From Deltaproteobacteria bacterium (GTDB taxonomy: Bacteria > Desulfobacterota > Syntrophia > Syntrophales > JACQWR01): a DNA stretch of 49,424 bases. This document shows positions 26,771 through 42,822 of the stretch, in pieces. The first letter of the stretch is position 1; every line of letters begins with the position of its first letter. The notes under the pieces are model-generated. The model did not search any database and was not told where the DNA came from. It was given only the letters and a program-made list of their open reading frames with translations. Both the position numbers and the translations under genes were made by a program. Where the stretch lies: the NCBI GenBank assembly GCA_026388415.1, contig JAPLJV010000011.1:1-49424 (forward strand). The letters run 5' to 3'.

Positions 26771-28507
26771 TCAGGGAAAGCTGATTACATCCGCTGGGCA
26801 GTTGGATGCACATAGGCCGCAGCCTGTGCAGGTGTCTTCCTTGACGTGAGCAACAGGTACACCTGCGGGTGTCAGGGGGCCGAAGATCGCGATCTGCCGT
26901 TCTTGCATTTCCATCTCTATTGCACTGGCAGGACAGGCCTCCTTGCAGGAGCCGCAGCCACTGCAACGTTCCTCATTTACCTGGGGCAATACGCGATCCA
27001 TTTCGTTATCGAGGAGCATCTCGCCCAGGGCGCCGAGGATTTCCCTTTTCTCCCAGCGCAGCTCCCGGGGATGCCGGATAAATCCCGCATGGTATTTCTT
27101 TCTTCCCCATTTTGTGGGCGACCACCGGAGCTGGGGCTCGGACCGGTAGAGGGAGAGAAATTCCCTCCCCTGCAAGCGCTCGGCGTAGTCGTCGAAGCGG
27201 ACGATTGTGTCGGCGTTGATAACCAGTTCCCTGTCTCCCCGCGTAATAGAGACCCGGTTACCAGTAAAGAAAAAACGTTCATCCTCCTCAAGATGGATGA
27301 AGATGATACCTTCCCTTCTTGCCAATTCATAGGCAAGCTCACCGTAAGAAGGGGTAACCATGTTGCGCGTCAACACGTAGACGGTCTTACCGGCTTTTCT
27401 TAGGGCTCTCGCTGCCTCAATAAACTTTGCGGAGATGAATTCAGAGAATATGGCGTAACCGGGATTATCTGTACCCAGATAGAAGAGATAGGTTGGGGAT
27501 CCTCCCTCGGGAAGAGCAAAATCAGGTTCATCTTCACGGTAAAGCCGCTCGTCTTGCCGTTCGGCTTTGGCGAGGATTTCCGGCCCTTTGACAGCGATCA
27601 ATCCGGCGCCAAACCCCGTGAGAATAGCATCCTTGATATTCATCGGCTCCAGGGCCCCGCCGGAGACGTAAACACCTTCGACATCCGTCTGAAGCGGCGC
27701 CTTTTCATTGACAAATCCATGGGCATTCAACGAAAAACCGAACAGCTTGCTCAACTCTGCCAGCTCGGGGTTGGGCCGGAGTCCGATGGCCAGAACAACG
27801 TAGCTGAAGCGCTCTTCTCTTAATTGTCCGCCGGCGTAATACCTTACCGTCACACCGTCCTCATCCTCCTCGAAATACCGGGAATTGGCCCGGATAAACC
27901 GCACCCCTGCATCGCGGTAAGCCTGCTCCATGTAATATTCCTGGCCGAACAGCCGGAGGTCGTTGTAGAATACGGTCATCTCCGGTTTTGCCCTCTGGAG
28001 CGTCCACTTGATTTCACGGATCGTATAGGAACAACATACTGATGAGCAGAGGGGATTTTCCTGAGAACGGGACCCGACGCAGAGAAAAAAACCGATCTTG
28101 TGGAAATCGCGGGGAAGCTCTCCTTGCCGCTGGTCAATGAGCGCGTCGTATTCAAGGCTCGTCATGACCCTCTTACCCTTGTATTCAACGGGATCGTAGG
28201 GCAAAAGCCCGGTGGCGATGATCACCCTGTCGGCAGTGAGCGTCCGTCCATCTTCCAAAGTCACGATGAAAAGATTGTCCTTTTTAGCGACGGAGACAAT
28301 TTTCCCTTCCCTTACCACCGTCAAACGGGGATCATCCCTTATCTCGTCAAAAAATGTTTTGAACCCGATGCGGCAATTGGCAATGCGGGCCATGAGACCG
28401 CCGGGTTCCGCCGAGGACTCAAGGATGGTGACGGTATGGTTTGCCTTCAGGGCGACCTTCGCCGCCGAGATGCCGCTGATGCCGCCGCCTATTATCAATA
28501 CGCTCAT
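26771..28507 (-). CDS. HdrA-like flavoprotein with C-terminal 2[4Fe-4S] domain
   Basis: 578-aa last gene of the electron-transfer operon. The FAD-binding GGGISGISAAK starts at residue 7; LVVLAIGL-type strands and CVGSRSQENPLCSSVCC (about 165-181) are hallmarks of HdrA/QmoA-B flavoproteins. An extra domain (about 340-500: YLFYLGTDNPGYAIFSEFIS, TVYVLTRNMVTPSYGELAYELARREGI) is not found in the other two HdrA-like proteins here. Two ferredoxin motifs close it: CSGCGSCKEACPASA and CTGCGLCASNCPADVI. It lacks the MvhD-like tail of true QmoB. The start overlaps the hdrB stop (ATGA). It is likely a flavin branch point in a multi-subunit complex. Confidence 0.85.
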   Translation of the reverse strand: MSVLIIGGGISGISAAKVALKANHTVTILESSAEPGGLMARIANCRIGFKTFFDEIRDDPRLTVVREGKIVSVAKKDNLFIVTLEDGRTLTADRVIIATGLLPYDPVEYKGKRVMTSLEYDALIDQRQGELPRDFHKIGFFLCVGSRSQENPLCSSVCCSYTIREIKWTLQRAKPEMTVFYNDLRLFGQEYYMEQAYRDAGVRFIRANSRYFEEDEDGVTVRYYAGGQLREERFSYVVLAIGLRPNPELAELSKLFGFSLNAHGFVNEKAPLQTDVEGVYVSGGALEPMNIKDAILTGFGAGLIAVKGPEILAKAERQDERLYREDEPDFALPEGGSPTYLFYLGTDNPGYAIFSEFISAKFIEAARALRKAGKTVYVLTRNMVTPSYGELAYELARREGIIFIHLEEDERFFFTGNRVSITRGDRELVINADTIVRFDDYAERLQGREFLSLYRSEPQLRWSPTKWGRKKYHAGFIRHPRELRWEKREILGALGEMLLDNEMDRVLPQVNEERCSGCGSCKEACPASAIEMEMQERQIAIFGPLTPAGVPVAHVKEDTCTGCGLCASNCPADVISFP

Positions 28508-29184
28508 AAGGCTTGTTTCTCTCCCATTATATAGAGGAGGAGGTCCGTGAAGTAGATGACCTTTCTCGTGTTCGAGAATGTCTTCATCGCCATGTGACAG
28601 AGCGGGCAGAAGACAACGATCGTTCCTTGTGACTTCTCCAGAATCAGTTTGGACAGCTTTTCCGTGACGGACTTGTTGATGAAAATCTGGTTGCCGCCGC
28701 AGCAGCGGTCTTTCACCTTTTCACCGGCCACTTCACCGCCGAAACGGCTAATTACCTCTTCCATGACCGTATTCCTCTGAATTGCCGTTTCCCGTGGGCG
28801 CAGGAGGATGCAGCCATAATATGGCGTAAAGACCTGCTCCTTCAGATCCCGCGCCGGTTTTAGGGAAGAAAGGAAGGCATCATCGAAAAGGTCGAGGGGG
28901 TGGGAAATGATGAATTCTTTTTGCTCGTCGGCCTCGCGCAGATTCTTGTAGCAGGCGGGACAGGGAGCGACGATCTCAATGAAGAGACCCGCGGCCTTGG
29001 CCAGGTTCTTCTTTGAGAATTCCGTCAATTCCTTTCTGTCGCCGTATTCAAAAGCGCCACAGCAGTTCCAGTCCGGGATTTCCTTGAGGGTATGCCCCTG
29101 TTTCCCGAAGACCTTGCGTAGCCCTGTATCCAGTTTGCGGGCTGAGCCGGTGAGGGAGCAGCCCGGGTAATAACCGTAGTTCAT
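28504..29184 (-). CDS. hdrB: HdrB-like CCG-domain subunit
   Basis: 226 aa with two complete CCG cysteine motifs, the non-cubane [4Fe-4S] sites that reduce heterodisulfide in HdrB. The first uses YYPGCSL (C9), NCCGAF and CPAC. The second uses YYGC, RCCGGNQ and CPLC. No membrane segment. Start overlaps hdrC (ATGA) and stop overlaps the next gene, so it is tightly coupled. In bacteria without methanogenic cofactors the disulfide partner is unknown. Confidence 0.9.
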   Translation of the reverse strand: MNYGYYPGCSLTGSARKLDTGLRKVFGKQGHTLKEIPDWNCCGAFEYGDRKELTEFSKKNLAKAAGLFIEIVAPCPACYKNLREADEQKEFIISHPLDLFDDAFLSSLKPARDLKEQVFTPYYGCILLRPRETAIQRNTVMEEVISRFGGEVAGEKVKDRCCGGNQIFINKSVTEKLSKLILEKSQGTIVVFCPLCHMAMKTFSNTRKVIYFTDLLLYIMGEKQAL

Positions 29185-29648
29185 TTAGTCCTCTTTACGT
29201 TGTGGGGAAGATGAATGCCCGCATATTCCAGCCATTTAGACAGGTGTTTTATGTATCCTCCCTTAAGAAGGAAAGGGATCGCCTTGATAATCACGTATGG
29301 TTCGTAAACCCTTCCCCAGATTGAAACAGAGTCCTTAAAGGCCTTTTCAAAGGGCGACGCAGCGGCGAGCTCTTCCCGGAGCGCCCGGATAACCTCCGGA
29401 ATCCGTATATTCCACGGACAGGCGTCGGTGCAGCGGTAACACCCCGTGCAGTAACGAACGAGAGGATCATCGGCAAGAATGTTATTGCCGAGAAAGAGCT
29501 GCTGGAGAATTTCCTGCGGGTTGGTATTTTCCGCAAGATCATTCACCGTACAAACTGAGGCGCAGATTTTACAGCCCAGACAGACAGAGAAATCCTGTCG
29601 CTCGTAATCCGTTAAAGCAAAGACCCTGCTCTGGTCATTGTTTTTCAT
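29181..29648 (-). CDS. hdrC: HdrC-like dicluster ferredoxin subunit
   Basis: 155-aa protein with two [4Fe-4S] motifs CLGCKICASVC and CTGCYRCTDACPW, followed by helices (RIPEVIRALREEL). This is the HdrC pattern of passing electrons from HdrA to HdrB. The ATG at 29648 is preferred to a TTG at 29663, because GAGGATGGA gives it a ribosome site. It is directly upstream of hdrB. Confidence 0.9.
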   Translation of the reverse strand: MKNNDQSRVFALTDYERQDFSVCLGCKICASVCTVNDLAENTNPQEILQQLFLGNNILADDPLVRYCTGCYRCTDACPWNIRIPEVIRALREELAAASPFEKAFKDSVSIWGRVYEPYVIIKAIPFLLKGGYIKHLSKWLEYAGIHLPHNVKRTK

Positions 29649-29702
29649 TCCATCCTCGTCCAATGTGTAAAGGAAGAAAAATTGGCCGGTTCACTTAATC
29701 TC

Positions 29703-30713
29703 TCAATCTTCCGCATCTTTCAGCTCATCCTCAAGAAAGGTAAGGTACGGTATGGGGTCATCGAAATTCTGCCCGGACATATAAAAAAACATGCCCTGGA
29801 GCCTCTCCGAGGTGCCCTTGAAGTATTTCGTCAGGGGGATGCCCTGTGGACAGGCCTCTTCGCAGGCTCCGCAGCCCACGCAGGTTTGGGAAACATGAAA
29901 CATCCGGATCAGTTGGAAGAGTTCTTTGCCCTGCGGCATAGTGGTGGAACCGGTCCGCAGAACCTTGTTCAAGAGCGCATCCCCTTTGGGCAGGTATTCA
30001 TCGCCATGAAAAACACAGTCAATACAGTAGCATACCGGGCACATCGCCATGCAGTTCTTGCACATGATGCACTTTGAAAAATCCTTCGCAAAATCGTCCA
30101 TATCGGTCTGGAACTGGGGAGGCGGTTCCTTCTCGCCGACAAGCATCTCTTTGGGAGCTTCTTCGAGGTTGCCCTCCATCAGGGAAAGAAAGGTCTCCCC
30201 TTTTTCCGTGTAAGAAAAGGCCCAGAAGGCCCCGCGTTTATCAATTCTGATCCCGGCGTCTCCCACAATACCTCTTGGTTCCCGGCAGACCTGGCAGGCC
30301 CACCGCATTTTGTCGGTTTCCTGCATGTAGGTAAAAAGCTCACGCGCCTCCGTCGGTATTGCGCCAATCTCCTCTTTTGTGGAAACCGTGCCGGGACAAT
30401 CAACGGAAACAGCGATGATATCCTCGCGTTCAATCTGGGTAAGTTTGACCAGCTCCACATACGCCCGAATCTCGCAAGGTCTCAGCAGAAGGATGATCTG
30501 CGCCCCTTTGGCAAAGAGACGGCGCAGAAACAAGGCGCCGCTTACGCTGAAAAGCGGATTTAATAGGGAGTATTGTTCGAGGCTGTTTTTGAATATCCGA
30601 TGACTTACCCCATTCTTGTCCTTTTCAAAACCGAGGACCAGGTGTTGTTCATCCTTCAGAAACTCCGTGAGCGCGCCTTCTACCGCACCGTTCTTAAGCT
30701 TTTTTGCCTGCAT
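29703..30713 (-). CDS. FrhB/FdhB-family flavin and iron-sulfur subunit
   Basis: 336-aa member of the coenzyme F420 hydrogenase/dehydrogenase beta-subunit family. Recognised by LLRPCEIRAYVELVKLTQIEREDIIAVSVDC-type core (about 95-127), a WACQVCREP pair, and ferredoxin motifs CIMCKNCMAMCPVCYCIDC (about 216-234) and CVGCGACEEACPQG. In characterised relatives this subunit holds FAD and exchanges hydride with F420, or in bacteria possibly with NAD(P)H or a formate dehydrogenase. The partner here is not shown by sequence. It overlaps mvhD by 20 bases. Confidence 0.88.
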   Translation of the reverse strand: MQAKKLKNGAVEGALTEFLKDEQHLVLGFEKDKNGVSHRIFKNSLEQYSLLNPLFSVSGALFLRRLFAKGAQIILLLRPCEIRAYVELVKLTQIEREDIIAVSVDCPGTVSTKEEIGAIPTEARELFTYMQETDKMRWACQVCREPRGIVGDAGIRIDKRGAFWAFSYTEKGETFLSLMEGNLEEAPKEMLVGEKEPPPQFQTDMDDFAKDFSKCIMCKNCMAMCPVCYCIDCVFHGDEYLPKGDALLNKVLRTGSTTMPQGKELFQLIRMFHVSQTCVGCGACEEACPQGIPLTKYFKGTSERLQGMFFYMSGQNFDDPIPYLTFLEDELKDAED

Positions 30714-31110
30714 TTTTCTTTTCCTTTAGCTCTGCGTGCATGACCGTTACCTTCTCCACAAAGCGCCGCGCTTCCGCCGCACTTACCCAGAAAAGCTTCA
30801 GTCTATCCTTCATGGAGAAGGCGTCGAACATCTCTTTCAGGGCCGCTATCTTTCTGCGCGTGTAATAGTTGCCTTTGATATAGTGGCAGTCTCCGGGGTG
30901 GCAGCCGGCGACAAAGACGCCATCCGCCCCCTCAGTTATGGCCTTGATAATGAAGGCCGGATCAACCCTGCTGGAACAGGGCACCTGGATGAGCTTCACC
31001 CCATCCGGGTATTTCATTCTCAAGCTTCCGGCCATCTCGGACGCCTTAAAAGTGCAGTGCGAACAGGCGAAACCGATGATCTCGGGGTTATTCCGGGTTT
31101 GATCTTCCAT
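30694..31110 (-). CDS. mvhD: MvhD-like [2Fe-2S] linker subunit
   Basis: 138-aa FlpD/MvhD-family protein that connects an electron-input module to HdrA. Conserved cysteines are in FACSHCTFKAS (about 15-18), VPCSSRVDP and GCHPGDCHYIKGN, the family signature. No hydrogenase large or small subunit lies in the window, so the FrhB-like subunit encoded next is the likely input/output partner, as MvhD pairs with FdhB/FrhB in other clusters. AAGGAAGG precedes the ATG closely. It is the first gene after the palindromic mini-element. Confidence 0.92.
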   Translation of the reverse strand: MEDQTRNNPEIIGFACSHCTFKASEMAGSLRMKYPDGVKLIQVPCSSRVDPAFIIKAITEGADGVFVAGCHPGDCHYIKGNYYTRRKIAALKEMFDAFSMKDRLKLFWVSAAEARRFVEKVTVMHAELKEKKNAGKKA

Positions 31111-31127
31111 AGCCTTCCTTCCGAGCC

Positions 31128-31249
31128 AATTGCTAAACGTTTTGTCATGCCCGAATGTTTCTGTCGGGCATCCATGATTTCATACAGCTACAAACTGGAT
31201 TCCCGCCCAAAAGAGTCGCGGGAATGACAGAATTGGGAGTTTAGCAATT
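31128..31249. repeat. 122-bp palindromic mini-element with 11-bp terminal inverted repeats
   Basis: AATTGCTAAAC (31128-31138) and GTTTAGCAATT (31239-31249) are perfect terminal inverted repeats. Inside are two REP-like hairpins: ATGCCCGA/TCGGGCAT (31147-31171) and TTCCCGC/GCGGGAA (31200-31224). These belong to the widespread 'ATTCCCGC...GCGGGAAT' style of intergenic palindrome. The element fills the only sizeable gap in an otherwise overlapping operon. Its right end encodes the last codons (Asn-Cys-stop) of hdrA. Confidence 0.75.
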
Positions 31250-32938
31250 ACCTCCTCTGTTAATCTTATCCGCCTCCGTAAAGGCGCTTATCTCGTCATC
31301 AATCATGCTGTCCCCATAGCCTTTTAAACTTATCGCCGATGAGGGGCACGTGCTGTTGCAGAGGCCGCACCCCGTGCAGGCCGCTTCCTCCACCCGGGCA
31401 ACCCGCGTTGTCTCGTCAAACGTTATCGCCTTGGCAACACAGGCCTGCTCGCACATCCGGCAGCCGCTGCACCGCTTCGGATCAACGCAGGAAATGAAGG
31501 GATCAACCGCTGCATAGCCGAGATTCAGGAAGCCAAAAAGTTTCACCGCCGCCGCCCTGCCGTGGTTGAGCGATTCTTCCACATCCTTGGGGCTCGAACA
31601 TGACCCGGCGATAAAGATCCCTTTCACCGCCGTGTCAAAGGGCCGAAGCTTGATATGGGCCTCCAGGAAGAATTTATCCTTATCAAGGGTAATCTTGAGG
31701 AGTGAGGCGATCAACCGGTTGTCCACGGGGGGAGACATACCGATGGAGAGCACTACCAGATCGAACTCTCGCTCAAAAGTCTCGCCAAAAAGCGTATCCT
31801 CTCCACGGATTACAATGCCCGTTGGTGACGGATTGATCTCCGCAACATTTGCCCGCGTAAAGAGCACTCCCTTTTCTTGCGTATCCTCGAAATACTCCTC
31901 ACCGCCGCGGGAATGGGCCCGCACATCCAAGTAAAAGGACTCCACGTATGAGTCCCTATATTTATCCTTGATTGCTTCCCCGACGCGTAACGCATTGATA
32001 CAGCAAACTCTGGAGCAGTAAGGTTTCCCGATCTGTTCATCACGCGATCCGACACAATGGAGGATGGCCACCCTCGGCTTTTCGGGAAGCTGCAAAGTGT
32101 CGCCGCCGTGCTCGAACTCCAGGGTGGTGATGATTCTTTCATCCTTCCCGTAATTTAATTCCGGCTTGATGATTGGATCAAAGGGTGAAAACCCGATGGC
32201 GACAATCACTCCTCCTACGGTCAGTTTTTGCTCGCCTTGCGGGGTATCGAGCGTCACTGCATAGTTGCCGAAGGAACCCTCAAAGCCACTGATGGTCGTT
32301 GAAGTGAATAGCTCAACGTTATCTCTTGCGGCCAATTCTTCGCTCATTGCGAGGATGATGCTTTTGCCGTCTTTTCCTGCAGGCCAGATATTTTTCAGGT
32401 TCTTTACCTGGCCGCCCAATTCAGCTTTTTTTTCTACCAGATAGACCTGTATGCCCATTCGCGACAGGAACAGGGCCGCGCTTAAACCTGCTACACCGCC
32501 ACCAATGATCAGGGCGGCCTTCTTGACGGCTACCATCTTCTCCTCAAGAGGAACGTAGTGGGCCGCCGAATAAAACCCTGCCAGAATCAGCCGCTTTGCC
32601 TTTTCCGTATTTTTTTCAATATCATCCCCGATCCAGGAACAATGTTCCCGGATACCGACCCTTCGCAGGAGAAAGGGGTTGAGATTTGATTTTTTCAAAA
32701 CATCCTGGAACAGTTCGCCGTGCAGCGAAGGTGTGCAGGCGGCGATGATGACGCGGTCCAGCCCTTCTTCGGCAATGTTTTTGCCGATCAGCTCCTGGCC
32801 GGGCTCGGAGCACAAAAAAACATAATCCTTTGATACAGTTACATTGGGGCATTGTTTGAAGTGTTCACTCAACTGCTGCACATCAACGGTGTGTTTGATA
32901 TTATGACCGCAATGACAGATAAAGATTCCGGTTTTCAT
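31241..32938 (-). CDS. hdrA: HdrA-type flavoprotein with C-terminal 2[4Fe-4S] domain
   Basis: 565-aa HdrA. The N-terminal domain GIFICHCGHNIKHTVDV with YVFLCSEPGQELI and IIAACTPSLHGELFQ (1-135) is canonical for HdrA. The FAD-binding motif GGGVAGLSAALFLSRMGI is near 145; CVGSRDEQIGKPYCSRVCC near 295 and GIFIAGSCSSPKDVEES follow. Ferredoxin motifs CSGCRMCEQACVAKAI and CTGCGLCNSTCPSSAI are at about 488-535. The inserted DCSxC segment of archetypal HdrA is absent here, but present in the neighbouring 437-aa paralogue, so the two may share one HdrA role. The C-terminus is altered by the mini-element. Confidence 0.93.
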   Translation of the reverse strand: MKTGIFICHCGHNIKHTVDVQQLSEHFKQCPNVTVSKDYVFLCSEPGQELIGKNIAEEGLDRVIIAACTPSLHGELFQDVLKKSNLNPFLLRRVGIREHCSWIGDDIEKNTEKAKRLILAGFYSAAHYVPLEEKMVAVKKAALIIGGGVAGLSAALFLSRMGIQVYLVEKKAELGGQVKNLKNIWPAGKDGKSIILAMSEELAARDNVELFTSTTISGFEGSFGNYAVTLDTPQGEQKLTVGGVIVAIGFSPFDPIIKPELNYGKDERIITTLEFEHGGDTLQLPEKPRVAILHCVGSRDEQIGKPYCSRVCCINALRVGEAIKDKYRDSYVESFYLDVRAHSRGGEEYFEDTQEKGVLFTRANVAEINPSPTGIVIRGEDTLFGETFEREFDLVVLSIGMSPPVDNRLIASLLKITLDKDKFFLEAHIKLRPFDTAVKGIFIAGSCSSPKDVEESLNHGRAAAVKLFGFLNLGYAAVDPFISCVDPKRCSGCRMCEQACVAKAITFDETTRVARVEEAACTGCGLCNSTCPSSAISLKGYGDSMIDDEISAFTEADKINRGGNC

Positions 32939-32951
32939 GACAGTTCACTAT

Positions 32952-34250
32952 TCACTGAGTTATATACTCCATACAGCTTGCCACCGCTTCTCCGCCGGAG
33001 GCGACGGTATCGGGAATATCTTTCGGCCCCGAGGCCATCCCGCAGACAAATATTCCGTCCACATTTGTTCGTGATGGCGTCATCGAGTCCACTTTAATGA
33101 AACCGTATGCATCTTGTTCTATAGCCATAATATTGCAGAGTTCTTCGGTCCCCGGGCGAGGCCTCACCCCGTTGGCAAGAATGACAATATCCACTTCAAT
33201 CTCGCGCATTTCACCGCTGAACATGTCCTCCACCCTGACCAGCAATCCATTTTCGCTCTTCGTGATCTCTCCGGGAATCCCCCGTATATAAAAGACCCCA
33301 CTTTCCTGGGTGCTTTTGTAAAACTCTTCGTAGCCCTTGCCATAAGCCCTGACGTCTATGTAGGATACGTAAATCTCTGCACCTTTGATTCTGTCCTTTA
33401 CGATACTGGCATGTTTGGCCGTGTACATACAGCATACCCGGGAACAGAACCGGGCATCGCTTTGTCGATCCCGGGAGCCGACACACTGGATAAAATAGAA
33501 TCGTTGCGGGGCTTTTCCGTTTAATACAATATCGCCGCCTGTCGGTCCCGTAACCGAGCAGATCCGCTCGAACTCGATGCCCGTAACAACACCTTCCAAC
33601 GTGCCATAGCCGTATTCCTTCTTTTCAGCGGCGTCATAGAGGTCAAAACCTGGTGCCAGCACAACAGCATCAAAGTATAGCTCAACAATTTCCTCTTGCT
33701 CATCAAAATTTATGGCCTTTGGTTCGCACGCATCGAGACAGGGTTGCTTGCATTTCCCCCTGGAGAGAAAGAGGCAGCCTTCAGCATCAACAAGGTATTT
33801 CTGTGGCGCCGCTTGGGGAAAGGGCAAGTAAATCGCCGCCCTCTTTGACAAACCCAGATTGAATTCGTCGCTTAGCCGGCCTTTCATGATGCATGACTCT
33901 GAACAAAGTCCGCAGGCAGTGCATTTTTTCATGTCCACAAAGCGCGGTTTCTTCTGTATGCGGATATCGAAGCCCTTCCCGCTTCGTTGCATACCGACCA
34001 GTTTCGCCATGGTAAATAGGGATATATTGGGATTTAAGGAAACCTCGGACATTTTTGGTGAAAGGGTGCAGGTGGAGCAGTCGAGCGTGGGAAAGGTTTT
34101 GTCGAGCTGGATCATCCTGCCGCCAATGGATGGACCAACTTCCAGCATGGTCACGTGGACCCCGCACGATGCCAGCTCAAGGGCTGCGGTGATACCGCCG
34201 ATACCTCCACCAACGACAAGGACGTGTTTCATGTTATCATTCAATACCAT
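32952..34250 (-). CDS. HdrA-like flavoprotein lacking N- and C-terminal HdrA domains
   Basis: 432 aa from ATG 34250 (AAAGG five bases upstream; an ATG at 34232 is also possible). GGGIGGITAALELA is the FAD motif. TLDCSTCTLSPKM is the HdrA-specific cluster-binding insert, and CTACGLCSESC plus GKCKQPCLDACEP form an inserted ferredoxin (about 110-190). CVGSRDRQSDARFCSRVCC and GIFVCGMASGPKDIPD complete the flavoprotein core. It ends there, without the C-terminal ferredoxin domain, and it lacks the N-terminal CHCG domain. It is complementary to the 565-aa HdrA, which lies 13 bp downstream. It begins just after the etfA stop. Confidence 0.87.
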   Translation of the reverse strand: MVLNDNMKHVLVVGGGIGGITAALELASCGVHVTMLEVGPSIGGRMIQLDKTFPTLDCSTCTLSPKMSEVSLNPNISLFTMAKLVGMQRSGKGFDIRIQKKPRFVDMKKCTACGLCSESCIMKGRLSDEFNLGLSKRAAIYLPFPQAAPQKYLVDAEGCLFLSRGKCKQPCLDACEPKAINFDEQEEIVELYFDAVVLAPGFDLYDAAEKKEYGYGTLEGVVTGIEFERICSVTGPTGGDIVLNGKAPQRFYFIQCVGSRDRQSDARFCSRVCCMYTAKHASIVKDRIKGAEIYVSYIDVRAYGKGYEEFYKSTQESGVFYIRGIPGEITKSENGLLVRVEDMFSGEMREIEVDIVILANGVRPRPGTEELCNIMAIEQDAYGFIKVDSMTPSRTNVDGIFVCGMASGPKDIPDTVASGGEAVASCMEYITQ

Positions 34251-34251
34251 A

Positions 34252-35190
34252 TTAACCTTTAACAATATCTCTCAGTTTATCCCTTACCTTGTGGATATCG
34301 GCAATGATGCCGAAATGCGCGTACTGAAAAATTGGTGCGTCCGGGTCTTTATTCACGGCAATGATGCAATCGGAATCTTTCATGCCGGCAATATGCTGAA
34401 ATGCGCCGCTGATACCCATGGCGAGGTACACTTTCGGCTTGACGGTTTTTCCCGAAGTGCCGACCTGGCGTGGCTTGGGAAGCCACATTTTATCAATCAC
34501 CGGCCGTGAACCGGAAAGCGTTGCCTTTAAAAGATCGGCAAGTTGTTCATAGTCCGGTATTTCATCCTTGTTCCCGATCCCCCGGCCCACGGAAAGAAGA
34601 AATTTGGCCTTGGTAATATCAATTTCTCCCTTTTCTTCCTCCACGTATTCCAGGAAGGTTCTCCCTGCGGCAACAGGCAACCCTTCCATTGTCTCAATAA
34701 CTGGGGACGACGACTTTTCAACGGCATGCTCTTTAAAACTGCCGCTCCTGACGGTGATGACAAAAGGCCCCGGCCCGGCATTTCTAAATTCCCCGAAAAT
34801 TTTATCGGAATAGTAACTCTTAGAAAAAACATTCCTTTCTTTGTCAAAGCCGTTCACGTCCGTGATCAGGGGCAGGTCGAAATACCCGGCCACGTACGAT
34901 GCAAGCTCGGCCCCTGAAGACGAATGCGTAAAGACTATGACGTCAGGTTTTTCCCGGGAATCCATCATTGTTTGCAGGACGCCCACCATGTTTAACGGGT
35001 TCAGAAAGAGGGCTTCTTCTATTTTTACCCTGACGATGGCGTTAACCAACTTTTCATTCATAGCGTAGGCGCCGTCAGCGACGAGAAGAGAAATATCTTT
35101 TTCCATTAGGGCACACAGACCAATAGCATCGAAATTCCTTTCTTCAAAGACACCGCGTCTTACCTCTGCTACAACGAGTGCATAACTCAT
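34252..35190 (-). CDS. etfA: Electron transfer flavoprotein alpha subunit
   Basis: 312-aa FAD-binding ETF subunit. The C-terminal FAD domain is complete: LLSVGRGIGNKDEI, SGSRPVIDKMWLPKPRQVGTSGKTVKP, YLAMGISGAFQHIAGM and IIAVNKDPDAPIFQYAHFGIIADIHK. The N-terminal domain (about 1-180) is divergent. It overlaps etfB by four bases. Within this operon it should accept electrons from acyl-CoA dehydrogenase and hand them to the Fe-S proteins encoded on either side. Whether the ETF is bifurcating is not decidable by eye. Confidence 0.96.
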   Translation of the reverse strand: MSYALVVAEVRRGVFEERNFDAIGLCALMEKDISLLVADGAYAMNEKLVNAIVRVKIEEALFLNPLNMVGVLQTMMDSREKPDVIVFTHSSSGAELASYVAGYFDLPLITDVNGFDKERNVFSKSYYSDKIFGEFRNAGPGPFVITVRSGSFKEHAVEKSSSPVIETMEGLPVAAGRTFLEYVEEEKGEIDITKAKFLLSVGRGIGNKDEIPDYEQLADLLKATLSGSRPVIDKMWLPKPRQVGTSGKTVKPKVYLAMGISGAFQHIAGMKDSDCIIAVNKDPDAPIFQYAHFGIIADIHKVRDKLRDIVKG

Positions 35191-35966
35191 TGGTACACCC
35201 CCTTTTCCTTCAAAATTCCCAGAAGCTCTTTGCAGGCGTCTTCAATGCCCCCGGAGAGCATTATTGCCCCGGTCATCTTGGGCGGGTAAATCCATTTTAC
35301 GGCCTCTATCTTGCTCACCACATTTTCCCGATAATCTGCCGCCTTGAAGACTTTCCGCTCAACTTTTGAGGCCTTCCGCACTCCCATGATGGAGACGTAC
35401 CGCGGCTCATTGATTCCGGTCTGAATAGAAATAACGCAGGGAAGCATGACCTTTACCCGCTCCTGGAGGCCGCCTTCGAGCTCTCTTCTCACGATGAAGT
35501 GACCGCTTTCCACGGCATCAATGCCGATCACCATGGACACGAAGGGAAGTCCGAGCCTGGCGGCAAGAATACCGCCCATAGCGCCGAACTGATCATCCTC
35601 GGACTGTACGCCCGTAAAAATCGCATCAAAAGGAACGCTTTCCTTTTTCAGGAAATTCCGTATCAAGGTTGCCCGTGTACCAGGATCGTGGAGGACATCG
35701 CCCGTCTCAATTAGAAAGCCATCATTGGCGCCCATGGCGATAGCCCTGCGCAAGACCTCGTCGGACTCGGCATCCCCGATGGAGACCGCGGTCACCGTGC
35801 CGCCCGTCTTTTCAACGATACGGACAGCCTCTTCAACCGAGTAGTTGTCCCAGTCATTTACTTTGAAGGGCACTTTCGATAGATCAACCACCTTCCCGTC
35901 GTCAATAATGCGGAGTTCCTCTTCCTGTGTTGCCGGCACTCTTTTCGTGAAAACCAACATATTCAT
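35187..35966 (-). CDS. etfB: Electron transfer flavoprotein beta subunit
   Basis: 259-aa ETF beta. Marks: FTKRVPATQEEELRI at the N-terminus, DNYSVEEAVRIVEKTGGTVTAVSIG, VLRRAIAMGANDGFLIE, DAIFTGVQSEDDQFGAMGGILAARLGLP (nucleotide site, about 110-140), and INEPRYVSIMGVRKASKVERKVF, the contact loop for acyl-CoA dehydrogenases. Two bases separate it from the HdrD-like gene, and it overlaps etfA. Confidence 0.96.
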   Translation of the reverse strand: MNMLVFTKRVPATQEEELRIIDDGKVVDLSKVPFKVNDWDNYSVEEAVRIVEKTGGTVTAVSIGDAESDEVLRRAIAMGANDGFLIETGDVLHDPGTRATLIRNFLKKESVPFDAIFTGVQSEDDQFGAMGGILAARLGLPFVSMVIGIDAVESGHFIVRRELEGGLQERVKVMLPCVISIQTGINEPRYVSIMGVRKASKVERKVFKAADYRENVVSKIEAVKWIYPPKMTGAIMLSGGIEDACKELLGILKEKGVYQ

Positions 35967-35967
35967 T

Positions 35968-37062
35968 TTATAATACCTCCATTAAAATCTCGGACAGCTC
36001 TTTCACCGCGATCCCTTTTTCCGTTGCCGGGTCTTCCAGGGTCATAAGGCAAAAAGGGCAGCTCGTGGCAATCACTTCAGCTCCTTTTTCCACTGCCTCA
36101 AGAACTCGCACCTCGGCGTTTCTCTGATAGGCAGCCTCCACCTCAAAAAACATCCTGCCGCCACCGCCTTCGCAGCATATGGAGTTCTCCCTGTTCCTCT
36201 GAAATTCCAGGAGGCTAAGCCCCTCTATCGAATTGAGTATATATCGTGGTTCGTCAAAGATGCCGTTTTGTTTCCCAAGGAAACAGGGGTCATGATAGAT
36301 AACTTTTTTACCGAACGATCCATTGGGCGCCAGAGAGCCTGCCTTGATCATTGCCGCCAACACTTCCGTGTAATGGACAATCCTGATGCCCAGGTCGCCA
36401 TACTCCTTTTTGAGCGCATTCATGCAGTGCGGGGAGAGCGCAATAATCTCCTTGACGCCATATTCTTCCAAGGCAGCCTTGTTCTCTTCCTGGAGTTCTT
36501 CAAAAAGACCCGTTTCCCCGATCCTGCGTATCTCATTTCCGCAGCAAGCCTCTTCTTCACCAAGCACACCGAACTCTATGCCGCCTTTGTTAAGTATCTT
36601 CGCCACGTTTTGCGGTATAACCATGCAGCGGGGATCATAGGCCTGGATGCAACAGGTAAAAAGCAGTATCTTCGAATCCGTTTCGCTGATATGGGGGACT
36701 GCAATATCGAGTTTATCGAACCAAGCTCCTCTCTTTGCTCGCGAACGACCCCAGGGGTTCTTCTGCACATAAGTGTTTTCAAGGGCTTTCTGGATAGTTG
36801 CCGGGATCGCTCCGTTTTCCACCAAAGCAGACCTCATTTCGATAATGACTTCCGAAGGTTTTACATCCCGTGGACATCTAAGGGTACAAGCGCCGCATGA
36901 CGTGCAGTACCAGGGAAGCGATTCCTCAACCACGCGCTCAAATTGTTTTTTTCTCATGAGCAGGCGGGTATTGAAGGGAGTTTTTCCTGCTTCCGGACAA
37001 CTGCCCGTACATTTCCCGCACTGGATGCAGGTTAATACCCTGGTCTGGGTCTGATTAACCAT
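35968..37062 (-). CDS. HdrD-like (HdrC+HdrB fused) Fe-S oxidoreductase
   Basis: 364-aa first gene of the operon. The N-terminal HdrC-like half has CIQCGKCTGSCPEAG and CTSCGACTLRCPRDV. The C-terminal half has two CCG-type motifs: the first is FTCCIQAYDPRC, EACCGNEI and SPHC, and the second is HDPCFLG, ICCEGGGGRMF and CPFC. In the first, a serine replaces the first cysteine of the classical CxxC (SPHC). There is no transmembrane region, unlike the membrane-bound ETF:quinone-type FeS oxidoreductases next to etfAB in Syntrophomonas and others. The direct etfB linkage suggests it takes electrons from ETF, and it may exchange with the Hdr core. Confidence 0.88.
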   Translation of the reverse strand: MVNQTQTRVLTCIQCGKCTGSCPEAGKTPFNTRLLMRKKQFERVVEESLPWYCTSCGACTLRCPRDVKPSEVIIEMRSALVENGAIPATIQKALENTYVQKNPWGRSRAKRGAWFDKLDIAVPHISETDSKILLFTCCIQAYDPRCMVIPQNVAKILNKGGIEFGVLGEEEACCGNEIRRIGETGLFEELQEENKAALEEYGVKEIIALSPHCMNALKKEYGDLGIRIVHYTEVLAAMIKAGSLAPNGSFGKKVIYHDPCFLGKQNGIFDEPRYILNSIEGLSLLEFQRNRENSICCEGGGGRMFFEVEAAYQRNAEVRVLEAVEKGAEVIATSCPFCLMTLEDPATEKGIAVKELSEILMEVL

Positions 37063-37210: not shown

Positions 37211-38356
37211 TCACCATACTTTTTTTAACAATTCTGCTCCAATTATGGCTTTTTCAACCTCTTTCGAACCTTCATAGATTTCGACGATCTTTGCATCTCT
37301 GTAAAACCTCTGTATATCATACTCACTTATATATCCGTATCCGCCATGGAGCTGCAAGGCCTGATTTGTTACATATACCGCTGTATCCCCTGCATTCCAT
37401 TTTGCCATGGAGATTAGCATCGGGTCGGGTTTCCCTTTATCCACCGAATGTGCTGCTCTCCAGTAAAGGCCTCGGGCAGCCTCAATCCTTGTTGCCATCT
37501 CTGCAAGCATAAACTGTATTCCCTGCAAGCGGGAAAGTGTCCCCCCGAAGGCCTTCCTCTTCTTTACGTGGGATATGGCCAGTTCGAGCGCCCCCTGAGC
37601 AACACCAACACCCTGAGCTGCAACGTGATTTCGTGTCTTGTTAAAAAAATCCATAAGCTGGTAAAAACCCTGCCCTTGCTTTCCCACGAGGTTTGTTAGT
37701 GGCGCTTCGACGTTGCTCAGGCTTATTTCTGTTGTATTTGATGCCCTGATACCCAGTTTCCCGTGTATCTTCGTTGCCTCATATCCTGGCTGATTCGTAT
37801 CTATAAGTATTGCGCTATGTCTTTTATGCGTATTCTTTTCGTCAGGGTCGGTGAGACAGAGGAGAAGGAGATAATTTGCCAGAGACCCGTTTGTGGTGAA
37901 CATCTTTGACCCGTTGATGATATACTTGTCACCCTGCTTTTCAGCCCGTGTTTTGATGCCTGCTGCATCGCTGCCTGCATCCGCTTCGGTGATACCGAAC
38001 CCCATAATGGCCTCTCCATTTGCAAGGGGTGGCAGATATTTCTTTTTCAGCTCTTCACTGCCAAAGGCCTGTATCATTTCAGAACCAAAGGTACAGGAAA
38101 GAACGGCCTGTCCACATCCCGGGTCAACCCGCCAGAATTCCTCTGATATTAAAGAGTGTTCAAAATATCCCAAACCTGCTCCGTCATACTCCTCTTTTAT
38201 AAACGTGCCCACAAAACCGTTTTCACAGGCCTTTTTCCATATAGATAAATCAAAATCCTCTTTCTCATCAAATTCCTTTGCCCTTTCCCTGAACTCTCCT
38301 TCGGCAAATTCACGTGCTGCCTTTCTAATGTCCAATTGCTCCCGGTTTAGTTCCAT
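37211..38356 (-). CDS. Acyl-CoA dehydrogenase
   Basis: 381-aa FAD enzyme oxidising acyl-CoA to enoyl-CoA. It has FAD/substrate segments FGITEADAGSDAAGI and KYIINGSKMFTTNG, the loop RASNTTEISLSNVEAP, and RKAFGGTLSRLQGIQFMLAEMATRI. It ends QLHGGYGYISEYDIQRFYRDAKIVEIYEGSKEVEKA, with the catalytic glutamate in YEG. Substrate chain length is not readable. AAGGAG precedes the ATG. It is oriented with, and upstream of, the ETF-Hdr operon, 148 bp away, so its electrons most probably enter that ETF. Confidence 0.95.
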   Translation of the reverse strand: MELNREQLDIRKAAREFAEGEFRERAKEFDEKEDFDLSIWKKACENGFVGTFIKEEYDGAGLGYFEHSLISEEFWRVDPGCGQAVLSCTFGSEMIQAFGSEELKKKYLPPLANGEAIMGFGITEADAGSDAAGIKTRAEKQGDKYIINGSKMFTTNGSLANYLLLLCLTDPDEKNTHKRHSAILIDTNQPGYEATKIHGKLGIRASNTTEISLSNVEAPLTNLVGKQGQGFYQLMDFFNKTRNHVAAQGVGVAQGALELAISHVKKRKAFGGTLSRLQGIQFMLAEMATRIEAARGLYWRAAHSVDKGKPDPMLISMAKWNAGDTAVYVTNQALQLHGGYGYISEYDIQRFYRDAKIVEIYEGSKEVEKAIIGAELLKKVW

Positions 38357-38526: not shown

Positions 38527-39992
38527 CTATTTCGCGTTCGCATACTGCTCCCTCAGTTCCCTTTTCAGAATCTTGCCGGCGGCATTACGGGGCAACTCAG
38601 GAACGATATGAACTATCTTCGGCACCTTATATCCTGCAATCTTCCCTTTGCAGAAATTAGTGAATTCATTAAGTTCCACTTCGTTTCCATTCTTAAGAAC
38701 AATAATGGCCGCAACTGCTTCCCCCCATACGGGATGGTGTGCGCCTATTACACATGACTCCTTGACAGCCGGATGGGTGTGCAGAACCTTTTCCACTTCC
38801 GCAGGATAAACATTCTCTCCACCGGTAATGATCATATCTTTTAGCCGGTCTATGACCCTGATGTATCCTTTTTCATCAATGGAACACACATCCTCCGTAT
38901 GAAACCATTCTCCTTCAAAAGCCTTCCTAGTTGCTGCTTCCTTTCGCCAGTAGCCGAGAGACATGCCGGGCCCCCGTATGATCATCTCACCAACACCACC
39001 ATTCGGAACCGCTTTATTATTTTCGTCAACGACGAGAACTTCCATGTCGTAGCTTGCTCTGCCGCAGGATTCAAGGATATTGTAATCCCCCCTCTCGAAG
39101 GCTTCTTTGATATCCCGGATCGAGAGGTTTGTCGTAACACCCGTTGATTCTGTGGTTCCATGGTGTTCGCCTAAGATATTGCCGAAGGTATCTATAAACT
39201 GTTTGTAAACAGACGGTATAATGCCCGCGCCGGCAAACCAGAGGGTTCTCCAGCTTGAAACATCGTACTTTTTGTAATCGGGGGAATCGAGCATCATCAT
39301 TACCATGGGTGTTGCAAACATGCCGGCTGTTAATTTTTCTTTTTCGGTGTTTGATAAGAAGAGGTTCACGTCCCACCGCGCAAAGATATAAGCCGGACAT
39401 GCCGTGTAGAAACTCCCGAAAAAGGTGTAGTGAGCAGTAATGTGGTACATGGGACAGATAATGAACATACGGTCATCCATGGTTAAATCATTGTTTTTAG
39501 AACATACGCGGCCAGCATGATAAAAGTTCGCGTGGGTTTGCATGACCCCTTTAGGAAGTCCTGTTGTGCCGCTTGTATACAAAAATATATAAAGTGTCTA
39601 ATTGAAGGGATAAACTCTATTATCTTCTCTACAATTTCAACAAACTGTTGCTGAACTAAGAGTATCGTTGGCTCTGCATCAGCAAGCACGGCAGCTATTT
39701 CCGGCGGCGCCAGCCTGAAATTACATACAACGAAGATAAGCCCTGCATTCGGTATGTTAATTGCCGATTCCATGTATTCTAAGCTGTTCTGGCTAAGTAT
39801 AGCCACACGGTCACCTTTTCTTGCCCCTATTTCATACAATGCATTTCCCACCCTGTTTGCCCTATCCTTCATCGCCTGATAGGTTAAAGTTCTATCTCCT
39901 TCCACTTCTTTCATTGCGATCTTGTCCGGATATAACATTGCATTTCTGTTTAGCAACGTTCGTATTGTAGAAAATGTTCTTCCTGTTGACAT
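38527..39992 (-). pseudogene. Acyl-CoA synthetase (FadD/AMP-ligase family), internally deleted and frameshifted
   Basis: ATP-dependent acyl-CoA ligase in two frames. The N-terminal part starts at ATG 39992 (AAGGAGG eight bases upstream) with FSTIRTLLNRNAMLYPDKIA, and reads to FIPSIRHFIY near 39597. The C-terminal part is in the -1 frame, open from 39597, beginning LYTSGTTGLPKG (AMP-binding A3 motif) and including RLKDMIITGGENVYP and NAAGKILKRELRE (catalytic lysine). Intact relatives have roughly 35-50 residues between these two segments, so a deletion with frame loss is the simplest reading. A T5 run at the junction could also hide a sequencing error. Coverage is about 480 of an expected 515-530 residues. 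It heads the acyl-CoA dehydrogenase side of the locus. Confidence 0.75.
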
Positions 39993-40040
39993 GGGGCGTC
40001 CCTCCTTTTTGGGATTAATATTAACTCTTATGTTTAATTG

Positions 40041-40056
40041 AGCAATTATGATGCCA
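40041..40056 (-). promoter_or_regulatory. Sigma54-type promoter of the acyl-CoA ligase gene
   Basis: The minus-strand sequence TGGCATCATAATTGCT matches the -24/-12 consensus closely, with GG-N10-GC spacing and full TGGCA and TTGCT blocks. The start of transcription would fall near 40030, about 38 bases before the ligase ATG. Confidence 0.75.
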
Positions 40057-40131
40057 AAATGATTTTTCCTAATAATAGACCATGTTCCAAGCGTTTTCTG
40101 GTTTCCGGTCAGGACGTTTTGCTGTATAAAG

Positions 40132-40150
40132 TGAATACACGATGTATTCA
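40132..40150. promoter_or_regulatory. Perfect palindrome, probable activator binding site
   Basis: TGAATACA-CGA-TGTATTCA, an 8-bp inverted repeat with a three-base spacer, about 80-90 bases upstream of the sigma54 promoter, where NtrC-type activators bind. A near-half-site TGTATTGA at 40166-40173 overlaps the -35 of the divergent kinase promoter. Binding by the adjacent response regulator is inference. Confidence 0.6.
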
Positions 40151-40169
40151 AAACGGTCAGGGGGGTGTA

Positions 40170-40198
40170 TTGAAAATAGCCACATATAATAATATATT
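40170..40198 (+). promoter_or_regulatory. Sigma70 promoter of the histidine kinase gene
   Basis: TTGAAA (40170-40175), 17-base spacer, TATATT (40193-40198). It gives a leader of about 30 bases before the ATG at 40238. Confidence 0.5.
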
Positions 40199-40237
40199 GA
40201 TTGCAAAATTACATGATTCTATGGTCAATTATTGCCG

Positions 40238-41431
40238 ATGATGGATAACAGGAGAAAAACAAAACAGCAGCTCTTACAGGAGCTGGTTGAGATGGACCGT
40301 CGGATTACCGAAAAGCAAAAGGCGGAAAACGATCTGCGTATTCTCAACGAGTTCAATAAGGCCATTATTGATAATGCCCCCGTTGCTATTTTTACCCTTA
40401 ACAAAGATGGCATGTTCACCAGTATAAATCCTGCCCTTGCCTCTCTTTCAGGCCTGGGTTTGAAGGCTGAAGAAAAACTCATCGGATTCAATTGGCTTAG
40501 AAACCAATACACGATACAATGCGGTCTTGCCCGACATATCGAGGGGGGATTGCGTGGTGAACCCTTCCAGTTATCGAATTTCCCTTTTATGAATTACAGG
40601 GGTGACAGAAACATCTTCATTGATTTTCAAGGGGTTCCTTTAAAGGGGAAAAACGGAGAAATTGAAGGGCTTCTCTGTATTATTGAGGAAACAACGGACC
40701 GAGTGAAGACGCAGGCAAAATTGATGCAGGAAGCAAAGATGTCTGCTATCGGAAAGCTTGCTGCCAGCATTGCCCACGAGTTGAACAACCCTCTTGGCAC
40801 ACTGGTGGCTTACTCTGAACTTGCCGGCAACTGTTTTACGTCGCTTCGGGGGCCAGCGACAAAACAATCTGAATTACAAAAACTTAAGGGGTATCTTAAA
40901 GTAATTGAGGAAGAAGCCTTCCGATGCAAAAATGTAACCACTGATATCCTCAGCCTGTTTCAAAAAGAAGGCCTGGAAATCACCAGGATAGACGTCAATC
41001 AGCTTCTCAGCACTATTCTTGAACTCATGAATACGGATAAATCGAATATAAGATTTATTATGGAAGTGTCTTCGCCTTTACCTTTTATTATGGGTGACAG
41101 AAATGCCCTCCGACAGGTTTTTGTAAATATCATACACAATGCAATGGATGCTACCGAAGGGAGAACAGATGCGACAATATGGCTGCGGACAAAACTGGCC
41201 AACAATCTGGTGGTTGTTGAGATAGATGACAATGGAACGGGTATCCCTGCTTCGATCATTGATAGGATTTTTGAACCATTTTTTACAACAAAAGAGCCTA
41301 AAAAAGGTACAGGGCTCGGTCTTTTCCTGTGTTATGATCTTGTGAACGACATGGGAGGGACTGTCAAGGCAAAAAGTAAGCCCGGATACAGAACAACATT
41401 CACCATTTCTTTCCCGGCACTAAAAATTTAG
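40238..41431 (+). CDS. PAS-domain sensor histidine kinase
   Basis: About 397 residues, cytoplasmic (no membrane segments). A short N-terminal coiled coil (about 5-35) is followed by a PAS domain with [20 protein letters not shown] and a PAC-like [17 protein letters not shown]-type end. The kinase core has the H box [16 protein letters not shown], the N box [11 protein letters not shown], the G1 box DDNGTGIP and [20 protein letters not shown]. All essential residues are present. It is 14 bp upstream of an NtrC-type regulator and divergent from acyl-CoA ligase, so it likely senses an internal metabolic signal related to acyl-CoA metabolism. Start ATG at 40238 has no good ribosome site; a TTG at 40232 and an ATG at 40241 are alternatives. 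Confidence 0.92.
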
Positions 41432-41445
41432 AAGGATGAACAAAG

Positions 41446-42822
41446 ATGATCCGTGTTCTGATTGTAGACGATGAAACAAGGCTTGTTGATGCCTTTACGG
41501 TGCATTTAACCGAAGAGGGAATGAAAATATTTACTGCGTCCAGTGCGCGGGAGGCCCTTTCTGTATTGAAGAAAGAGAACATTGATGTTGTGGTTCTCGA
41601 TATACGGCTTCCCGACACTGATGGTGTCGAACTGCTTTTGAAACTTAAGCAGATGGAACCCACTACAGAAGTGATAATGCTTACCGGCTTTGCATCAGTA
41701 GCCACAGCCATTCGATCCATGAAACTCGGCGCCTATGATTATCTGACCAAGCCATGTAAAATGTCGGAGCTTTCCAGCGTAATTTCAAGGGCGTATGAAA
41801 AAAAGATGCTGCAGGTAAAAACTATCGTGCTGGAAGAACATCTCCACAGGATGGGGATTCACGACGACTTTGTCGGGACAAGCAAGGAAATGGAAAAGGT
41901 AAGGAATCTCGTCTCGCTGGTGGCCCTTTCTAATGCCCCTGTGCTCGTCCTGGGTGAAACGGGCACAGGAAAAGAACTTGTTGCAAGGGCCATACACGAC
42001 CTAAGTCCACGATCTCGCCAACCATTTGTTTCCATAAACTCAAGCGCATTACAGGAGACCATGCTTGAGAGCGAGCTCTTCGGGCGTAAAAAAGGGGCAT
42101 TTACAGGGGCAGATAGTGACAAGCTTGGCCTTCTCGAAATAGCTAATCATGGCACCTTTTTTGTAGACGAAGTGGGCGATATGGGCGTGAGCATCCAGGC
42201 AAAGGTTTTACGGGCACTTGAGACGGGTGTATTCAGAAAACTGGGAGACACAAAGGAGACAAAGGTGGATGTCCGCTTCATATTTGCAACCAATAAGGGA
42301 CTCAAAAGAGAAGTCGAGGAAGGCAAGTTTCGTAAGGATCTCTTTTTCAGGATAAACACCTTTGTTATCAATCTTCCGCCCCTGAGGGAGAAAAGAGAGG
42401 ATATTCCCCTGCTGATTAACTATTTTGTTAATAAATTTACCAAAGGGGGCAGGAAAAAACGGTTTTCCCAAGGGGCGATAGATATACTTACAGCATACGA
42501 ATGGCCTGGCAATGTCCGGGAGCTTGCCAATGTCGTTGAGAGATCTGTCCTGATAAGCAGCCATCGTGAGGAGATAGTTGCAGATGATCTTTCCGAAGGA
42601 CTTAAAAATGAGGTGTCATGCATAATAGATACTGAGAAACCACAGTCAGAAGGCAGGATACTAACGCTTGCCCGGATGGAAGATGAATATATTCAAAGCG
42701 TCTTGAGTTCTGTTAAAGGTAATAAAAGCAGAGCTGCCCGGCTTTTAGGTATAAGCCGGAAAAATCTTTACGATAAGATCGGGGCAAGTCTTGGAGAAAC
42801 AGATAAGGAACCAGAAGATTAA
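41446..42822 (+). CDS. NtrC-family sigma54-dependent response regulator
   Basis: 458 aa. The receiver domain has VDDETRL (acidic pair 8-9), phospho-acceptor D52 in VVVLDIRLPD, T in MLTGFAS and K in LTKPCK. The AAA+ domain has Walker A GETGTGKE, the sigma54-contacting GAFTGAD loop, Walker B TFFVDEVGDM and the sensor segments ATNKGLKREVEEGKFRKDLFFRI. A Fis-type HTH (NKSRAARLLGISRKNLYDKI) closes the protein. It is the natural activator for the two sigma54-type promoters at about 40.05 and 37.1 kb. It forms an operon with the kinase gene. Confidence 0.95.
   Translation: MIRVLIVDDETRLVDAFTVHLTEEGMKIFTASSAREALSVLKKENIDVVVLDIRLPDTDGVELLLKLKQMEPTTEVIMLTGFASVATAIRSMKLGAYDYLTKPCKMSELSSVISRAYEKKMLQVKTIVLEEHLHRMGIHDDFVGTSKEMEKVRNLVSLVALSNAPVLVLGETGTGKELVARAIHDLSPRSRQPFVSINSSALQETMLESELFGRKKGAFTGADSDKLGLLEIANHGTFFVDEVGDMGVSIQAKVLRALETGVFRKLGDTKETKVDVRFIFATNKGLKREVEEGKFRKDLFFRINTFVINLPPLREKREDIPLLINYFVNKFTKGGRKKRFSQGAIDILTAYEWPGNVRELANVVERSVLISSHREEIVADDLSEGLKNEVSCIIDTEKPQSEGRILTLARMEDEYIQSVLSSVKGNKSRAARLLGISRKNLYDKIGASLGETDKEPED

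Follow-up and report, generated by a model that had tools for sequence, protein, structure and literature searches.

The AtoS-AtoC system, in which a PAS-type kinase and an NtrC-type activator act on short-chain acyl-CoA metabolism from a sigma54 promoter, provides the best-scoring named models for both proteins of the two-component system considered here; AtoS is membrane-anchored. The wider NtrC/NifA/DctD class shares with the locus the activator architecture, i.e. REC, AAA+ (with GAFTGA) and a Fis-type HTH, as well as an enhancer about 100-140 bp upstream (at the locus, a predicted one) and a -24/-12 promoter, and TGT/ACA-type dyads are known for NifA. Sigma54 regulons of the Clostridiales have reportedly been reconstructed by the same class of comparative inference as that used in this work. 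The reconstruction of the sigma54 regulon of Desulfovibrio vulgaris (PMC4641369) belongs to this class of inference as well, and its accessible text mentions neither an acyl-CoA regulon nor a TGTAT/ATACA motif. In the accessible text of a cross-phylum sigma54 survey (PMC12316311), the beta-oxidation and Etf genes are placed under predicted sigma54 control, mainly in Bacillota. A further parallel, by function from the literature and not by sequence, is BamV-BamW of Geobacter metallireducens, from the broader deltaproteobacterial group, where a two-component system controls anaerobic acyl-CoA degradation; BamVW and the sigma54 control of the bam genes for aromatic acid degradation are cited in the accessible text of PMC11497800. 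A known regulon of the kind described below was not found in those parts of the sigma54-regulon literature that were searched, and it is poorly known how the organic-acid-oxidising anaerobes turn on the electron-transfer modules that enable their metabolism.

The acyl-CoA oxidation module and its two-component system

The window, i.e. the whole stretch of 49,424 nucleotides analysed, carries on its minus strand an acyl-CoA oxidation module in which the electron-transfer part is elaborate. The predicted target operon begins with the gene for an AMP-forming acyl-CoA ligase (38527-39992), followed by an acyl-CoA dehydrogenase (37211-38356; domain and family matches), a 4Fe-4S/CCG-domain protein (35968-37062), whose orthologue is the commonest gene behind the dyad and sigma54 promoter in relatives, the EtfB/EtfA-type electron-transfer flavoprotein subunits (34252-35966, comprising 35187-35966 and 34252-35190), and a run of Hdr-like electron-transfer genes recognised by family matches (26771-34265). 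The latter includes two HdrA2-like flavoproteins, FlpD/MvhD-like, 4Fe-4S, HdrC-like and CCG (HdrB-like) proteins and another HdrA-like protein; the designation FixC for 32952-34265 was rejected, as NCBIfam puts its product with HdrA. Gaps of 170 nt after the ligase and 148 nt after the dehydrogenase leave room for other promoters.

The ligase gene is interrupted: by comparison with its orthologue in the relative G520, 112 nt immediately ahead of the nucleotide-binding motif are missing, at the junction 39582/39581, and the frame is lost afterwards. A chimera of two genes was rejected, since the two halves match a single orthologue at 75-82% identity, and a second close ligase copy was not found in the window's own genome, where the next best ligase is 36% identical. 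Either the ligase gene, and perhaps the operon, is in decay, or the break reflects an assembly error.

On the plus strand, the PAS-HisKA-HATPase histidine kinase (40241-41431; domain matches) likely starts from the ATG at 40241 and not from the TTG at 40232, as judged by the orthologue at the locus L071, and no transmembrane segment is predicted in it (maximum 19-residue hydropathy 0.89). The gene behind it (41446-42822, plus strand) encodes a response regulator with the domain set of the NtrC-type sigma54 enhancer-binding response regulators: REC, the sigma54 AAA+ domain with GAFTGA in the translation, and a Fis-type HTH (PF00072, PF00158, PF25601 and PF02954, all above cut-off), the HTH being conserved across the relatives.

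The 155 genomes of the window's own class, its own included, contain no other kinase orthologue at E<=1e-50, and for the 4Fe-4S/CCG protein they likewise gave none besides the window's own at E<=1e-120; the kinase search of the genome contigs gave distant kinases only, and a search of the window's own relatives with the regulator gave just paralogues of about 38-45% identity. Clear kinase orthologues occur outside the class but within the phylum, in the family f74 (identities of 71, 70, 63, 62, 60% and so on), in which the kinase-regulator pair usually adjoins the ligase, acyl-CoA dehydrogenase, Etf or Hdr-like genes; at the closest orthologous loci, the kinase is 70-71% and the regulator about 74% identical.

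Two variants of these proteins were observed among the relatives. Most members of a second kinase clade (L075-L086, about 47-54% identical) possess an N-terminal PAS region with a conserved C-x2-C motif (e.g., PCxxCPA) preceded by another Cys; this feature is absent from the window's kinase and may serve in metal or redox sensing. In G467 (contig C105, 7822-9267; locus L087), one open frame joins the kinase PAS region (query residues 8-167) to the regulator AAA+/HTH (residues 109-446), without the kinase and receiver domains, and would seem to be a naturally occurring one-component form of the regulator.

Probable control region between the ligase and the kinase

Every feature that a previous, sequence-only reading had placed within 40041-40198 was found there. 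The -24/-12 element, TTGGCATCATAATTGCT, lies between the ligase and the kinase on the minus strand (40057-40041) and is the sole match to YTGGCAN6TTGCW on both strands of the 49 kb window; it has the GG and GC elements at the fixed spacing of a sigma54 promoter (YTGGCAYN5TTGCW) and is aligned with the corresponding elements of the orthologous loci in G467 and G520. The transcript is predicted to start near 40030, and the ligase ATG is at 39992-39990, minus strand. The reported palindrome, TGAATACA-CGA-TGTATTCA (in full, TGAATACACGATGTATTCA), is present and perfect at 40132-40150, with the centre about 86 bp from the -24 GG, and its right half is the third of the conserved half-sites described below (TGTATGA in the orthologues). 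It is unique in the window even with up to three mismatches allowed, and a search for further copies throughout the 2.79 Mb genome gave it as the only match with fewer than three mismatches, all others having three and being uninformative, at the level of the reversed control. The palindrome by itself is, however, indecisive evidence, because 8% of the shuffled 248-nt intergenic sequences contain a perfect inverted repeat with arms of 8 bp; the case for function comes from conservation. The half-site said to cover the kinase -35 box, TGTATTGA, is located at 40166-40173 (plus strand) and is aligned with TGTATGAA in G467 and TGCATTTA in G520. The putative -35 that it overlaps belongs to a weak sigma70-like kinase promoter, TTGAAA-17-TATATT (40170-40198, plus strand), such matches being found at chance frequency (2 versus 2.2 expected).

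In G467 (kinase 71%) and G520 (kinase 70%), the kinase faces the orthologous ligase, and the intergenic alignment shows three half-sites in register, TGTATA-N3-TGNATACA-N3-TGTAT, a fourth one nearer the kinase, and the retained sigma54 element (ACGGCATCGTTATTGCT and ACGGCACTGTTATTGCT, respectively), while the sequence between these conserved parts is scrambled. In the window and in both relatives, the common core, TGTAT-N7-ATACA, is separated from the sigma54 element by 64-66 bp. In the window, the conserved unit is the dyad TGTATAAAGTGAATACA (40123-40139, minus strand), which is predicted to bind the regulator, lies 65 bp upstream of the sigma54 element with its centre at about -101, and overlaps just the left part of the perfect palindrome. 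The exact TGAATACA-N3-TGTATTCA palindrome is not conserved before the orthologous ligases, which have TGTATACA-N3-TGTATGA with non-complementary outer arms, and it represents a local variant. At six more distant loci (L074, L110, L111, L113, L115 and L116; kinase 57-62%), the kinase faces a 4Fe-4S/CCG-Etf operon, and 94-96 bp separate the dyad from a sigma54 element belonging to this operon, a distance greater by about three helical turns. In G552, whose kinase (71%) is as close as that of G467, the dyad was not found before the kinase.

Whole genomes were searched for the composite of the dyad and the sigma54 element separated by 60-121 bp, with the reversed pattern as a control. Thus, 29 matches against none of the reversed pattern were obtained in the 39 genomes of f74; about a dozen of them are the loci used for defining the pattern, and the independent matches before predicted genes include G520:C5, G554:C226, G431:C268, G551:C45, G536:C54, G542:C313, G544:C17 and G534:C227, among others. 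Twenty-four of the 29 are just upstream of an Fe-S/Etf/Hdr operon, ligase, kinase or TRAP-type binding protein: 15 precede orthologues of the 4Fe-4S/CCG protein (67-90% identical), three the ligase, two the kinase, and four a DctP-type TRAP binding protein, the rest falling before a saccharopine-dehydrogenase-like gene (one match, named by eye) or without a convincing gene (four). The composite site is found in 19 of the 27 f74 genomes with the kinase versus 3 of the 12 without it (one-sided Fisher p=0.011); the 154 kinase-free genomes that make up the rest of the window's class give 10 matches in all, and the window's site is the sole one in its own genome. In the loci selected solely for their kinase homology (627 kb), 15 composites were counted versus 0 in each of 20 Markov shuffles. 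The spacing is 63-103 bp for nearly all composite sites. What is observed directly is the set of sequence elements, how they are conserved and spaced, and that across genomes they go with the module genes, and the layout is real and conserved and, on this comparative ground, very probably functional.

The DctP solute-binding (TRAP-type) genes stand directly behind the dyad and sigma54 promoter, in or near acyl-CoA gene clusters, at the loci L134, L135, L140 and L153, and their products may import the acid degraded by the regulon.

Predicted regulation and competing explanations

The sequence-only reading, in which an NtrC-type regulator acts at the sigma54 promoter of a divergent acyl-CoA operon, is well supported in this part, the dyad and the sigma54 element being conserved and recurring before the genes of the same module, and is not supported with respect to the exact palindrome as the conserved element. 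The best explanation, which we consider likely with considerable confidence, is that of a shared divergent control region, through whose dyad and sigma54 promoter the kinase-regulator pair would switch on the operon; the regulator very probably activates the ligase/Etf-Hdr operon, as far as the comparison of genomes can tell. We infer the following course of events. The cytoplasmic PAS histidine kinase (40241-41431) would get a signal and phosphorylate the NtrC-type regulator (41446-42822), which in its phosphorylated form would occupy the dyad at 40123-40139 together with the half-sites next to it; bound about 100 bp upstream of the sigma54 promoter at 40057-40041, the regulator would hydrolyse ATP and open this promoter, with the ligase, the acyl-CoA dehydrogenase and the Etf-Hdr operon being turned on. 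The gene content and neighbourhood suggest the regulator's tie to acyl-CoA oxidation, and the signal may reflect the acid or acyl-CoA that undergoes oxidation, or else its redox state.

The regulator was also expected to repress its own operon; on such autoregulation, the relatives point both ways. In G412 and G534 (L074, L127, L128), one dyad is accompanied by sigma54 promoters in both directions, into the 4Fe-4S/Etf operon and into the kinase, so that the kinase would be activated; at five other loci, the dyad sits where the kinase gene begins, next to a sigma70-like -10, so that binding would repress the kinase.

Another binding protein is the alternative that survives best, though we regard it as unlikely: the promoter would be sigma54-dependent, but the dyad would be occupied by a different NtrC-family activator of the genome or else by a repressor of another family, e.g. 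an acyl-CoA sensor of the FadR/TetR type. The window's own genome encodes at least three further NtrC-type regulators with receiver domains, at 38-40% identity; however, the composite site co-occurs with and adjoins this kinase clade and is rare in a class that has many NtrC-type proteins without this pair, while the observed distance from the sigma54 elements suits an enhancer and not a blocking site. Still less probable, to a degree that we give it little weight, is that the dyad serves mainly as the autoregulatory operator of the kinase/regulator operon, with the sigma54 promoter of the target operon driven from elsewhere. The five relatives with the dyad at the kinase start and the window's half-site over the putative -35 would agree with this, but the dyad-sigma54 pair also precedes the Fe-S/Etf operons and DctP genes away from the kinase (G520:C5, G554:C226, G431:C268), and in G412 and G534 it is the same dyad that has sigma54 promoters on both sides. 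That the palindrome and the sigma54-like string arose by chance in A+T-rich intergenic DNA and regulate nothing is hardly credible, since, for all the frequency of equally good palindromes in shuffles and the chance-level match of the kinase promoter, the half-sites, the sigma54 element and their spacing are conserved across loci whose kinases are 57-71% identical and recur genome-wide before the same genes, and the scrambled flanks argue against neutral conservation of the alignments.

The module and two-component system at 26.8-42.8 kb are apparently absent from the rest of the class, at the E-value cut-offs given above for the kinase and the 4Fe-4S/CCG protein, and closely related to those of f74, which suggests a horizontal transfer of the operon, regulator and operators together; by their distribution, and not by a tree, the module, the regulator and the control region look acquired as a unit. 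It may be speculated, with more doubt than confidence, that a dedicated, horizontally mobile cassette of the cytoplasmic PAS kinase, the NtrC-type regulator and the TGTAT-N7-ATACA/sigma54 operators travels between classes with the Etf-Hdr acyl-CoA oxidation module, detects an intracellular cue from acyl-CoA oxidation, for instance an acyl-CoA or how far the Etf/Hdr carriers are reduced, and controls a pathway that runs near its energetic limit.

Comparison with the known systems

The kinase-regulator pair would work like AtoSC but is not classed as such, because its scores are far under the NCBIfam equivalog cut-offs (kinase 202.9 versus 646 bits, regulator 412.7 versus 714 bits), although AtoS and AtoC are the nearest named models, and two other features of AtoSC are lacking: the kinase has no predicted transmembrane sensor region, with the hydropathy given above, and the adjacent operon is of the ligase/acyl-CoA dehydrogenase/Etf/Hdr-like type and not atoDAEB (acetoacetate CoA-transferase and thiolase). 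As to the difference from BamV-BamW, genes for benzoyl-CoA reductase are missing from the annotated part of the operon. With the NtrC/NifA/DctD class it shares also a DctP transport gene among the targets in the relatives, whereas its dyad (TGTAT-N7-ATACA) and target set are different.

A specific candidate regulator is offered here, with a defined predicted binding motif at a fixed spacing and a predicted regulon (the ligase, the Fe-S/Etf/Hdr operon, the regulator itself and the TRAP transporter) for some twenty relatives with sequenced genomes, many in draft form; these may be used for substrate assignment and prediction of co-regulated genes where genetics is impossible. The control is of a known kind, that of a sigma54 enhancer-type two-component system, and since the same arrangement recurs in the relatives of the gene cluster, the locus is a new example rather than a new mechanism; what is new in comparison with the described systems is the motif and the predicted regulon for an anaerobic acyl-CoA/Etf-Hdr module.
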